DNA of 64,000 bases from NCBI RefSeq assembly GCF_013201545.1, contig NZ_CP053746.1, positions 1,341,001 through 1,405,000 of the forward strand, given 5' to 3'. The stretch's first letter is position 1. Each line of letters opens with the position of its first letter. The notes below the pieces were generated by a model, which worked only from the letters and a program-made list of their open reading frames with translations, ran no database searches and was not told where the DNA came from. The translations under genes and the position numbers were made by a program. Below, one piece after another: positions 14,696 to 39,354 of this stretch. Source of the stretch: Pseudomonas graminis. GTDB lineage: Bacteria > Pseudomonadota > Gammaproteobacteria > Pseudomonadales > Pseudomonadaceae.

Positions 14696-15182
14696 CTTCA
14701 GCGTTTGAAATACTGCCTTCGCGAGCAAGCTCACTCCTACAGGGGGCTGTGTTGGGCATGCTACCTGCGGCGGCTGACATGCAGGCGTGGGAGCGAGCTT
14801 GCTCGCGAAGGGGTCGGTGCATCCACCAAATCTTCAGCGTTTGAAATGCAGCCTTCGTGAGCAAGCTCACTCCCACAAGGGCTGTGTTGGGCATGCAATC
14901 TGCGGCGGCTGACATGCATTCGTGGGAGCGAGCTTGGTCGCGAAGGGGTCGGTACATCCACCAAATCTTCAGCGTTTGAAATGCAGCCTTCGTGAGCAAG
15001 CTCACTCCTACAGGGGGCTGTGTCCGGCATGCAATCTGCGGCGGCTGACATGCATTCGTGGGAGCGAGCTTGGTCGCGAAGGGGTCGGTACATCCACCAA
15101 ATCTTCAGCGTTTGAAATGCAGCTTTCGCGAGCAAGCTCACTCCTACAGGGGGCTGTGTCCGGCATGCAATCTGCGGCGTTT
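14651..15182. repeat. Tandem array of four REP units
   Basis: Four units begin at 14653, 14789, 14924 and 15060, a period of 135-136 bases. Each holds an inverted pair (GGGAGCGAGCTTGCTCGCGAAG type and GAGCAAGCTCACTCC type) around a centre containing CTTCAGCGTTTGAAATGCAG, then a spacer with GCATGCAATCTGCGGCGGCTGAC-like sequence. The last three are nearly identical, the first differs in its centre. This explains the 617-base gap before chpC; no gene is supported in it. Confidence 0.9.
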
Positions 15183-35822: not shown

Positions 35823-36413
35823 ATGAATGCACTCACCGGCGCCACGATTTTCGTCATCCAGACGCTCATCAGCCTGTACCTGACCATCGTTCTGCTGCGC
35901 TTTGTGCTGCAGCTGGTCAAAGCCAACTTCTACAACCCGCTCTGCCAGTTCGCCGTCCGTGCGACCCAGCCGTTGCTCAAGCCTATCCGGCGCATCGTGC
36001 CGAGCGTCTTCGGACTCGACACGTCCTCGCTGCTGCTGGCAATCGTCATTCAGGCGCTGTTAATGGCCTTCGTACTGATGATGACCTACGGCACCATCGG
36101 CGATATCCCGCACCTGTTGATGTGGTCGATCATCGGTATCACGTCGCTGCTGCTGAAGATCTTCTGGGTCGCGATGATCATCATGGTCATCGTTTCGTGG
36201 ATTGCTCCGGGCAGCCACAACCCGGCCGCTGAACTTGCCTACCAGATCAGCGAACCGATCCTGGCGCCGTTCCGTCGTATCATCCCCAACCTGGGCGGCA
36301 TGGACATCTCGCCGATCTTCGCCTTTATCGCGATTCAGGTGCTGCAGTCCTACGTCATGCCAGCGCTGGCGGCCTATGCCGGCATGCCGCAAGAGCTGTG
36401 GCGGTTGATCTGA
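35823..36413 (+). CDS. yggT: YggT family membrane protein
   Basis: 196 residues with two YGGT repeats, each a hydrophobic helix pair ending in PLLKPIRRIVPS or PILAPFRRIIPN. Starts at the ATG at 35823 with AAGGAG upstream. Role unclear; family members affect osmotic tolerance or division. It is the last gene of the operon, whose probable terminator now lies beyond the inserted IS. Confidence 0.93.
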   Translation: MNALTGATIFVIQTLISLYLTIVLLRFVLQLVKANFYNPLCQFAVRATQPLLKPIRRIVPSVFGLDTSSLLLAIVIQALLMAFVLMMTYGTIGDIPHLLMWSIIGITSLLLKIFWVAMIIMVIVSWIAPGSHNPAAELAYQISEPILAPFRRIIPNLGGMDISPIFAFIAIQVLQSYVMPALAAYAGMPQELWRLI

Positions 36414-36474
36414 CAGCCGCTGCATGCAGCAAATGAGAATGCGGTAACTCTGACCGTAGATACTCTGTTCCCGA

Positions 36475-37470
36475 TCAAGCTTTTTGCAGATGTTTTTCGC
36501 TGAAAAGCTTGGCCGTATTGAAGTCTTCGCCGCTGCGCATGCAAGCCCACAAACCTGTCAGGTATTTACGCATCACCGCGCAGATCGCTTGCATCTTACG
36601 TTTGCCTCGGCCCACCAGAGCCTCGTAAAAACCCTTCACATAGGGATCGCAGCGGATCGCAGTCAGCGCTGGCATGTACATTGAACAGCGTAAGTAAGCG
36701 TTGCCGCATTTGCTGAGCCTGCCAGGCTTGTCGATGCTCGTTCCAGACTGAGTCAGCCGTACATCCAGCCCTGCATGGCGGCTTACCTGGCCTGACTTCA
36801 AGGTCGTTGGCAGGGTCGCCATTTCGGCAAGCGCGGCCAGCGTGGAGACCTCGCCCATGCCGGGGGCCGCCAGCATATTATCGAACTGACCTTGGAGCAC
36901 CGGACAGCTGGCAACCAGATCCAGTCCAGCCTTTCTGAAGCGTTCAATACGCTTGTCAAAGGCTGCGATGGCCTCTTCTTCGTCTTCGATCAGCAGTGCC
37001 GAGGACGTGTCAGTCGCCTTAAGCGCGTGCAACTCATTTTTCGCCTGGGTACGGTGGTCGACCAGACGATTGATGTGCCGGCCGATAGCCCGCAGCTCAA
37101 GCTGGGCGGAAGTTGGCGGAGTCCACAAGCTAGGCGTCATACGCTCGCCATATTCGGCAAGCAACTGGGCATCGATTGCATCCGTCTTGCTGTGCTGAAG
37201 CTTCAGCCTGGCAAAATTACGGGAGCTTTTCGGGTTAATCACCGACACCGGCAAACCCGCTGCACTCAGCTCTATCGCCAGATCCAGGTAATAGATACCG
37301 GTGGCTTCCATGACAACGCTGAGCGGTTTGAGGGCCAGGAGTTTCTTGACGGCAGCCTTGCGGCCTTTAGGTGTTTGAGCAATTACCCACGCGCCGGCTG
37401 ATCGACCCTTATCGCGCCATCCCATAGCCGTCGTGCGTGAACCAACATCAAGACCGACGTGAATAGCCAT
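36475..37470 (-). mobile_element. IS110-family transposase gene (intact)
   Basis: 331 residues from the ATG at 37470, with GGAG nine bases upstream; an earlier in-frame ATG (37479) has no spacing to that site. The N-terminal DEDD/RuvC-like part begins MAIHVGLDVGSRTTAM and continues with VVMEATGIYY and KTDAIDAQLLAEYG. The C-terminal transposase_20 part has LLAAPGMGEVS and GTSIDKPGRLSKCGNAYLR with the expected serine. No defects are seen, so it could be active. Such enzymes are guided by a structured RNA from the element's non-coding end. It sits between yggT and metX. Confidence 0.9.
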
Positions 37471-37479
37471 GGCTTTCAT

Positions 37480-37735
37480 CTCCAGAAAAACTGGGTAATG
37501 ATGGCTCTGGTTCCCCTGACCTCGAACTTCATGCCGCTGCAACCTTGTAATGCGAAGTCCGACTTGTCGGCTTCTCGATACTCTACGTGGTGGGCAATGA
37601 GGCGGGGGGACCTCTCTACGGACAAGGTCAGGATTAACGTCTGCCTTAGGGACCGATCGGTCTCCCCCAGAACACATCTTTTTGGTTATGCATCCAGAAG
37701 ACTAGCGAGTCTGAGCGGGTGTGTGAGAAACATAC
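37480..37735 (-). ncRNA. Candidate bridge RNA region of the IS110 element (inner copy)
   Basis: The non-coding stretch upstream of an IS110 transposase is where guide (bridge) RNAs are encoded in characterised members. Here it contains a strong hairpin, GAAGTCCGAC / GTCGGCTTC at 37554-37574, and a 12-base palindrome GACCGATCGGTC at 37651-37662. No gene is present. Exact RNA ends cannot be set from sequence. Confidence 0.45.
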
Positions 37736-37765
37736 AAGACCGACGTGAATAGCCATGGCTTTCAT

Positions 37766-38020
37766 CTCCAGAAAAACTGGGTAATGATGGCTCTGGTTCC
37801 CCTGACCTCGAACTTCATGCCGCTGCAACCTTGTAATGCGAAGTCCGACTTGTCGGCTTCTCGATACTCTACGTGGTGGGCAATGAGGCGGGGGGACCTC
37901 TCTACGGACAAGGTCAGGATTAACGTCTGCCTTAGGGACCGATCGGTCTCCCCCAGAACACATCTTTTTGGTTATGCATCCAGAAGACTAGCGAGTCTGA
38001 GCGGGTGTGTGAGAAACATA
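37766..38020 (-). ncRNA. Candidate bridge RNA region, outer duplicated copy
   Basis: Identical to the inner copy shifted by 286 bases, with hairpin at 37840-37860 and palindrome at 37937-37948. It precedes only a truncated transposase start. If the RNA is made from each copy, its dose is doubled. Inferred. Confidence 0.4.
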
Positions 38021-38046
38021 CAAGGACCGGCTTCAGCCGGGAAGCT
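38021..38046. repeat. REP half-element abutting the IS110 end
   Basis: AAGGACCGGCTTCAGCCGGGAAG-type palindrome, the same class as 46195 and 61059, begins directly at the IS end. Only one half is present on this side, and no second half is recognisable at the other end of the IS. Confidence 0.7.
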
Positions 38047-38056
38047 TTTGATCTTG

Positions 38057-38087
38057 GGGCGACGGCACCAGCAGCCGTCGCCCTTTT
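38057..38087 (+). terminator. Rho-independent terminator, probably of yggS-proC-yggT
   Basis: GGGCGACGGC, loop ACCAGCA, GCCGTCGCCC, then TTTT. It lies after the IS and REP, about 1.6 kb from yggT. Before the insertion it would have followed yggT closely; that is an inference. Confidence 0.75.
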
Positions 38088-38214
38088 CCCGCCTAATGAA
38101 TGTCGCGCCGGCAAAAATCCAAAGCGTTACCCTCCGCGAATTCAGCCATTTAGTTTGTTGCCGCACCCCCGCGCGATCTTTAGACTTACGCCTCATTTCA
38201 GCGAGAGCAGGTCG

Positions 38215-39354
38215 ATGTCCACGGTCTTTCCCAAAGATTCTGTCGGTCTAGTCACGCCGCAAACGGCGCATTTCAATGAACCGCTGGCCTTGGCCTGCGG
38301 ACGCTCGTTGCCTGCCTACGATCTCATCTACGAAACCTACGGTCAGCTCAACGCCGCCAAAAGCAACGCGGTACTGATTTGCCACGCGCTTTCGGGTCAT
38401 CACCACGCGGCGGGCTACCACAGCGCAGAAGACCGTAAGCCGGGCTGGTGGGACAGTTGCATCGGCCCCGGCAAGCCTATCGACACCGATAAGTTCTTCG
38501 TCGTCAGCCTGAACAACCTCGGCGGATGCAATGGCTCCACCGGTCCCAGCAGCCTCAACCCGGAAACCGGCAGGCCCTTCGGCGCCGACTTTCCGGTGTT
38601 GACGGTCGAAGACTGGGTGCACAGCCAGGCGCGGCTTGCCGACCGGCTGGGCGTGGATCAATGGGCCGCCATCGTCGGCGGCAGTTTGGGCGGCATGCAG
38701 GCGCTGCAATGGACGATCACCTACCCCGAGCGCGTGCGGCACTGTCTGGCGATTGCTTCTGCACCCAAGCTGTCGGCGCAGAACATCGCCTTCAACGAAG
38801 TCGCGCGGCAGGCAATTCTGACGGACCCGGAATTCCACGGCGGCTCATTTCAGGAGCACGGCGTGATCCCCAAGCGCGGCTTGATGCTGGCGCGCATGGT
38901 CGGGCACATCACGTACCTGTCCGATGACTCGATGGGTGAGAAATTCGGCCGGGGCCTGAAGAACGAGAACCTCAACTACGACTTCCACAGCGTGGAGTTC
39001 CAGGTCGAAAGCTACCTGCGGTATCAGGGCGAGGAGTTTTCCGGGCGCTTCGACGCCAACACCTACCTGCTGATGACCAAAGCGCTGGACTACTTTGATC
39101 CGGCCGCCAACTTCAACGACAACCTCGCCGCCACCTTCGCCAACGCCAGCGCCAGGTTCTGTGTGATGTCGTTTACCACCGACTGGCGCTTCTCCCCGGC
39201 CCGCTCGCGGGAACTGGTCGATGCGCTGATGGCGGCGAAAAAGGACGTCTGTTATCTGGAAATCGATGCGCCCCAGGGCCACGACGCGTTCCTGATCCCG
39301 ATCCCGCGCTACTTGCAGGCTTTCTCCAGCTACATGAACCGAATTGCACTCTGA
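38215..39354 (+). CDS. metX: Homoserine O-acyltransferase (succinyltransferase, MetX family)
   Basis: 379 residues from the ATG at 38215 ([16 protein letters not shown]). Alpha/beta hydrolase fold with nucleophile S157 in [24 protein letters not shown] before it, and terminal GHDAFLIP carrying the histidine. First committed step of methionine synthesis. Pseudomonas MetX proteins of this kind use succinyl-CoA despite the name. It precedes metW by 7 bases. Confidence 0.95.

Follow-up and report, generated by a model that had tools for sequence, protein, structure and literature searches.

Why does one insertion sequence of Pseudomonas graminis carry its left end (LE) twice in a row, and what could the second copy do? 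The element lies in the window analysed here, a stretch of 64,000 nucleotides (contig NZ_CP053746.1, positions 1,341,001 to 1,405,000), between two genes which we take from their reading frames to be yggT-like and metX-like. An initial annotation had described two apparently identical 286-bp units lying head to tail. This was borne out by a repeat search, which returned two 286-nt copies with 100% identity at a spacing of 286, and by Tandem Repeats Finder (period 286, 2.0 copies, 99% matches across 37444-38029). An exact tandem of 286 bp is far beyond chance. Read in the direction of the transposase gene, a unit starts with the first LE bases (TATGTTTCTC...), crosses the non-coding end and extends over seven codons of the transposase (ATG GCT ATT CAC GTC GGT CTT, followed by G), and the outer copy is indeed limited to these seven codons. 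The two joints named in the annotation are likewise present in the sequence, CAAGACCGAC inside the element and CAAGGACCGG at the REP. Between its cores the window element spans 36460-38022, that is 1,563 bp compared with 1,277 for the single-LE form. Elsewhere in the window, at 14696-15179, Tandem Repeats Finder reported a 136-bp unit repeated 3.6 times (94% matches), apparently a REP-type array.

Features of the element with the duplicated left end (positions of the window)
Feature	Position	Strand	Detail
Right target	36454-36457	-	ACGG
CT core at right end	36458..36459	-	
End of the right end (RE)	36460-36465	-	GAGTAT
RE hexamer	36473..36478	-	TTGATC, candidate -35, 17 bp before LE TATGTT in the circle form
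IS110 transposase (recombinase) gene	36475..37479	-	intact frame
Inner 286-bp unit	37449..37734	-	second LE, runs on into the intact transposase gene
CTTG in transposase codons 7-8	37449..37452	-	partner of the joint within the gene
Predicted donor-binding loop, inner copy	37543..37586	-	GAGTATC and ATTACAAG fit the RE and LE ends
Predicted target-binding loop, inner copy	37604..37668	-	left guide CGGTC near 37651-37655, right guide CCGTAG 37616-37621
Outer 286-bp unit	37735..38020	-	LE (guide-RNA end) and seven transposase codons; LE abuts the REP
CTTG at the unit-unit joint	37735..37738	-	CT core 37737-37738
Predicted donor-binding loop, outer copy	37829..37872	-	
Predicted target-binding loop, outer copy	37890..37954	-	right guide 37902-37907
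CT core at outer LE	38023..38024	-	adjoins REP target half CCGGTC
REP palindrome half	38027..38041	-	CCCGGCTGAAGCCGG, beside the element

The transposase frame behind the inner unit ends at 36475 and comprises 334 codons if it starts with the ATG at 37479, or 331 if it starts with that at 37470. The ATG at 37470, which is found 8 bases behind GGAG in relatives, is more likely to be the start. The protein matches both IS110 profiles, the RuvC-like DEDD domain PF01548 with 75.5 bits (cut-off 29) and the Tnp domain PF02371 with 55.7 bits (cut-off 21.3). The non-coding end upstream of the gene is long, with about 260 nt from core to start, and the right end (RE) is short and stops 18 nt past the last sense codon in single-RE copies. 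In the IS1111 group the guide RNA is located downstream of the gene. Membership in this group was ruled out by the long upstream non-coding end and the short RE. An Rfam search of 36300-38300 gave osmY as the sole match up to E 1; at 17.8 bits it lies far under the gathering score of 46.9 and was taken as chance. E. coli genomes and plasmids, searched at a sensitivity for distant matches, contained no match to the element. As far as the available text of two papers on IS621-type IS110 elements describes them (PMC11208160; PMC11208158), the window element is like these in the combination of PF01548 and PF02371, the long upstream non-coding end, the CT core, the target and donor guides (predicted here) and a candidate RE-LE promoter; it differs from them in having the LE twice in tandem, which is not the case in the other three copies of the genome.

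Comparison of the copies placed the left end at target CCGGTC, core CT and LE TGTATGTT..., and the right end at RE ...GAGTAT, core CT and target ACGG. The suggestion that this IS110 end encodes a guide RNA is strengthened by the predictions, in which each unit contains a complete bridge RNA with guides fitting the REP targets. The left guide CGGTC in the LE fits CGGTC-CT and the right guide CCGTAG fits CT-ACGG, and the predicted donor loop fits GAGTATC and CTTGTA. In relatives, the guides change together with their targets (left CGGTC, CGCTC, CACTC; right CCGTAG, CTGTAG, ATGTAG). The predicted RNA folds, as a single sequence, with -64.5 kcal/mol (z -2.31, 3 of 200 shuffles as good). A consensus fold of 10 relatives has 39 pairs, 3 of them changed on both sides, with a covariation term of only -0.32. 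Since covariation within the fold is slight, the case for a bridge RNA rests more on the agreement between guides and targets.

The P. graminis genome (one contig, 5,521,192 bases) contains four copies of the element. As the three further copies each have a single LE, one LE is the normal state, in agreement with what had been assumed, and a search of the whole contig found no second two-LE copy. Within the element, the window copy differs at two bases from each of the other three, which are alike; both differences are silent at the protein level, and the window base is the minority state at both places (3 of 12 and 1 of 12 relatives). One further difference between the copies falls in the target, outside the element. 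With 286 of 286 bases identical the tandem looks recent, as had also been proposed. All LE units across the genome are identical and therefore the sequence gives no pointer to the older unit. This identity would also suit an assembly artefact, in which the real genome has a single unit. We regard such an artefact as very improbable: the genome is a complete single contig, the joint is absent from the other copies, so that it cannot stem from a mix-up between them, and like structures occur in other assemblies, including 4 of 4 copies in the genome G213 described below. In an assembly labelled as the same species (G020), the sequence beside metX matches at 83% and the element is replaced by a repeat array of its own; with these other repeats at the locus, the pre-insertion sequence is unreadable there.

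How the inner LE came to its place can be judged from its neighbour. We read 45 LE-target joints, 44 of ordinary insertions and the inner joint of the window. The ordinary joints belong to 44 of 46 loci of the close clade (Root562, with its LE at a contig edge, and a fragment in G058 were omitted). The left guide matches 5/5 bases at 31 of the 44 ordinary joints and 4/5 at the other 13. At the inner joint, where the left neighbour is GTCGGT, transposase codons 5-6 rather than a matched target, it matches 1/5. The right guide matches 6/6 bases at 32 of 44 joints and 5/6 at 12, four of those six bases having been fixed by the search word (CTAC). Taken as a 12-base target, the inner joint scores 3/12 in register and 7/12 when shifted by one base (core TT), and a score of 7/12 is reached or exceeded at 43 of 2718 places on both strands. 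As the one unmatched end beside 44 matched ones, the inner joint offers a natural contrast in the study of guide-target pairing.

Two origins had been offered for the tandem, the first being insertion of the element at a target-like site in its own transposase gene. This does not agree with the values above: because the left guide matches 1/5 bases at the inner joint compared with 4-5/5 at the 44 ordinary joints, guided self-insertion of the ordinary kind is unlikely to have placed the inner LE. A fuller version supposes that a second copy, guided by the bridge RNA, inserted at a target-like site of the transposase gene, followed by homologous recombination that removed one gene body. The joint is exactly as a donor LE beside CT would give, and one scheme would make both the window form and the G213 form, since two alternative collapses would give LE-type and RE-type duplications. 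Against it stand the 1/5 and 3/12 in register at the window joint and the internal site of G213, which scores 2/12 in register with CG replacing CT; moreover, no nested copy was noticed among the loci read, where this was not an aimed search. Taken together, we consider such a guided insertion improbable.

The second origin, slippage between short matches, fits in so far as the joint falls in CTTG. Written on the transposase strand, the sequences are GCCGGTC-CTTG-TATG at the REP joint, GTCGGT-CTTG-ATG at the site in the gene and GTCGGT-CTTG-TATG at the tandem joint. CTTG is common to both partner sites and contains the CT core. According to the available text on the IS621 recombinase, its cut falls beside the CT core and frees a 3' end (PMC11208158). 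Annealing of a freed end of this kind at CTTG in a sister gene, followed by extension, would give exactly the tandem.

To the following reading we give an even chance of being correct: the tandem arose by a short-homology accident anchored at the element end, perhaps started by recombinase cleavage, which left an inert inner end. A complete IS110 element sitting in a REP would recently have had its left-terminus DNA joined via CTTG to a site within the transposase gene of a sister copy, which would produce the tandem copy of LE and seven codons. The likeliest trigger would be an aborted cut at the CT core, followed by mis-priming or mis-joining of the freed end, because one breakpoint lies at the CT core, where the IS110 recombinase cuts. 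The outer LE, which keeps the REP target half, would be the working end. Both the trigger and the inertness of the inner end are what we infer here; the structure, the ends, the agreement of guides and targets, the lack of a guide match at the inner joint, and the recurrence and spread described below can be read from the sequences.

Slippage without any cut would give the same tandem, and these two routes are indistinguishable in the sequence. A close rival, which we hold to be plausible and somewhat less probable, leaves the recombinase uninvolved: plain slippage during replication, or unequal crossing-over, between the short direct matches at the REP joint (GCCGGTCCTTG) and in the gene (GTCGGTCTTG). 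CTTG is present at both partners, with CGGT just upstream in both at a one-base offset, and 31 of 1265 element windows align to the REP joint at least as well. However, CTTG occurs 9 times on the transposase strand of the element, so that homology alone picks no place, and each of three events within a single clade involves an element end.

These events come from a scan of IS110 loci for tandem repeats of at least 25 bp and 90% identity, over each gene with 500 bp on its upstream and 600 bp on its downstream side. It covered 182 distinct loci (163 with both flanks), of which 46 have transposases at least 70% identical to that of the window element, 25 have 45-70% and 111 lie below. The scan was non-exhaustive and its loci are a selection, namely the best few candidates per genome in searches of the genus and the class. 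Beyond the window it found three more end-duplication events. In the close clade (46 loci, 13 assemblies), six loci representing three events have a tandem repeat, and each is a duplicated end: the window LE, an RE duplication of 412 bp in G213 (four loci) and one of 103 bp in Root562. Six repeats were reported for the other 136 loci, one of which (L065, Pontibacter pamirensis) is a 70-bp LE duplication. Judging by these sequences, lopsided end-duplicated copies recur among related elements. Under a rough post hoc model, in which a duplication of given length is placed at random and leaves one gene copy whole, the first three events have chances of about 0.012, 0.009 and 0.06 for a breakpoint so near the end, with a combined p of about 5e-4 (n=3), or about 1e-3 for the first two events only; the model fits Root562 poorly, as its transposase gene is broken in two pieces.

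Several further repeats were rejected as end duplications. By eye, those in L047, L062 and L136 lie outside the element, and that in L222, a locus of the same type as L224 and L226, probably does so too, the outer end of its element not being fixed; with the Pontibacter case these are five of the six repeats, the sixth being that in L190. Repeats flagged in L015, L032 and L082 were found by eye to lie outside elements or where there is no element, and among those flagged in L001, L017, L039, L040, L063 and L079 none was a tandem by the scan threshold near a gene. Two near-identical IS110 copies about 1.3 kb apart in G041 (L196) were considered as an RE-LE dimer and turned out to be separate insertions in two neighbouring copies of a tandem genomic repeat. 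Searches among relatives around G213 and G000 added no element to those already known.

The G213 element (L169-L172) is an IS110 of 1,695 bp with a 412-bp tandem of the RE and the last part of the gene. Its 4 of 4 copies found are identical over 1,695 bp and lie at four different targets, each of which is adjoined by the outer RE. That identical copies occupy four sites shows that an end-duplicated element can transpose. This element therefore moved as a unit by its outer end, and the end-duplicated form has become the mobile form in this genome. The window element should, by analogy, rely on its outer LE and still transpose as a unit. Both elements have a tandem end copy with one breakpoint within about one base of the terminus. 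In G213 the duplicated end is the right one, with 412 bp, and this form has reached four sites, whereas the window form was seen once. The junction in G213 reads GAGTATC/GCCGCC, where the core T is missing, and ATC is all that its partner sites have in common. In Root562 (Pseudomonas sp., L053:1143-1352) the 103-bp tandem of the right end is joined 5-7 bases outside the core, with two joint bases of unknown origin. A cut exactly at the core is thus not a general rule, given the missing core T in G213 and the offset in Root562.

The Pontibacter duplication (L065:2031-2180) speaks for slippage. Its 70 bp of LE end in the left target TACTGTTAT and in the same nine bases inside the LE, a homology that accounts for the join with no need of a cut. 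The LE copy of the nine bases is where the left guide seems to lie, and it is followed by CCTGTTTTAC, by eye similar to the right guide expected for the target (CCTGTTTAAC). An empty copy of the target elsewhere in the genome supports the boundaries; the core reads CC at the left joint, and GT at the right joint and in the empty copy. In the bridge RNA, as described in the available text of PMC11208158, the left guide pairs with the bottom strand, and its coding DNA is therefore a short direct repeat of the left target. Since every left guide is by nature such a repeat, which again favours slippage, the target-guide pair may be a built-in slippage site.

As to what the inner LE does, three roles had been suggested for a second copy: a doubled guide RNA, a promoter reading into the transposase, and an alternative end. 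Excision restores a promoter across the RE-LE joint, according to the available text of PMC11208160. The RE hexamer listed in the table reads TTGACC in the other 15 of the 16 distinct LEs read. At the inner joint, the hexamer at the same 17 bp spacing is CATGGC, with 0/6 matches to TTGACA, and the best of three spacings gives 3/6 at 16 bp; the best -35 match at the REP joint is also 3/6. A sigma-70 scan of 36400-38250 found no promoter at a cut-off of 9/12, which would miss the 8/12 circle candidate too. A new promoter reading into the transposase is thus not what the joint offers, as the -10-like hexamer of the LE has no matching -35 there, and the tandem would give the inner RNA no promoter of the circle kind. 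With no matched target half and no circle-junction promoter, the inner LE, though intact in its guide-RNA sequence, would be a passenger that is transcribed by read-through only. Both RNAs would be contained in a transcript that comes from the outer LE, and a second dose of guide RNA through read-through is possible. Translation from the outer start would give a peptide of 36 amino acids that stops within the inner LE. That the inner LE serves as an alternative end is unlikely, again because it has no matched target half.

A literature search returned no publication on duplicated IS110 ends, judged by titles and the openings of abstracts. The nearest published relative seen is ssr9 of ISPpu9 in Pseudomonas putida, an extra RNA-encoding segment with its own end boxes, which occurs in tandem in some strains (PMC8450116, available text). 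Both elements are of the IS110 type, lie in REPs, whose role as targets of insertion sequences is the subject of PMC1525189, and can carry an additional RNA-encoding segment with element-end boxes. As described for ISPpu9, ssr9 follows the gene on its downstream side, carries A and B boxes of its own and shows an end-core-end joint (box B, AG, box A). In contrast, the window element repeats the LE and seven codons upstream, with no RE between the units. An ssr9-type segment was rejected for the window, where the inner joint consists of transposase codons, CTTG and LE instead of end-core-end. The Ssr9 RNA is reported as about 180 nt long, sense to the transposase and bounded by end boxes (PMC8450116). 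From this description, Ssr9 could serve a mini-element as its bridge RNA and need not be a sponge RNA alone.

A broader claim, that self-cuts of IS110 recombinases regularly seed tandem end duplications and so open a route to elements with two guides or a spare end that still transpose, appears unlikely to us at present. If it were true, the second guide RNA of such an element might evolve towards another target, a course that ssr9 of ISPpu9 may have taken. As the G213 copies show, an end-duplicated IS110 can keep moving by its outer end, so that such forms can be inherited. A duplicated guide-RNA end is raw material for a second target without loss of the first, and the question whether the bridge recombinase itself causes end duplications becomes testable.
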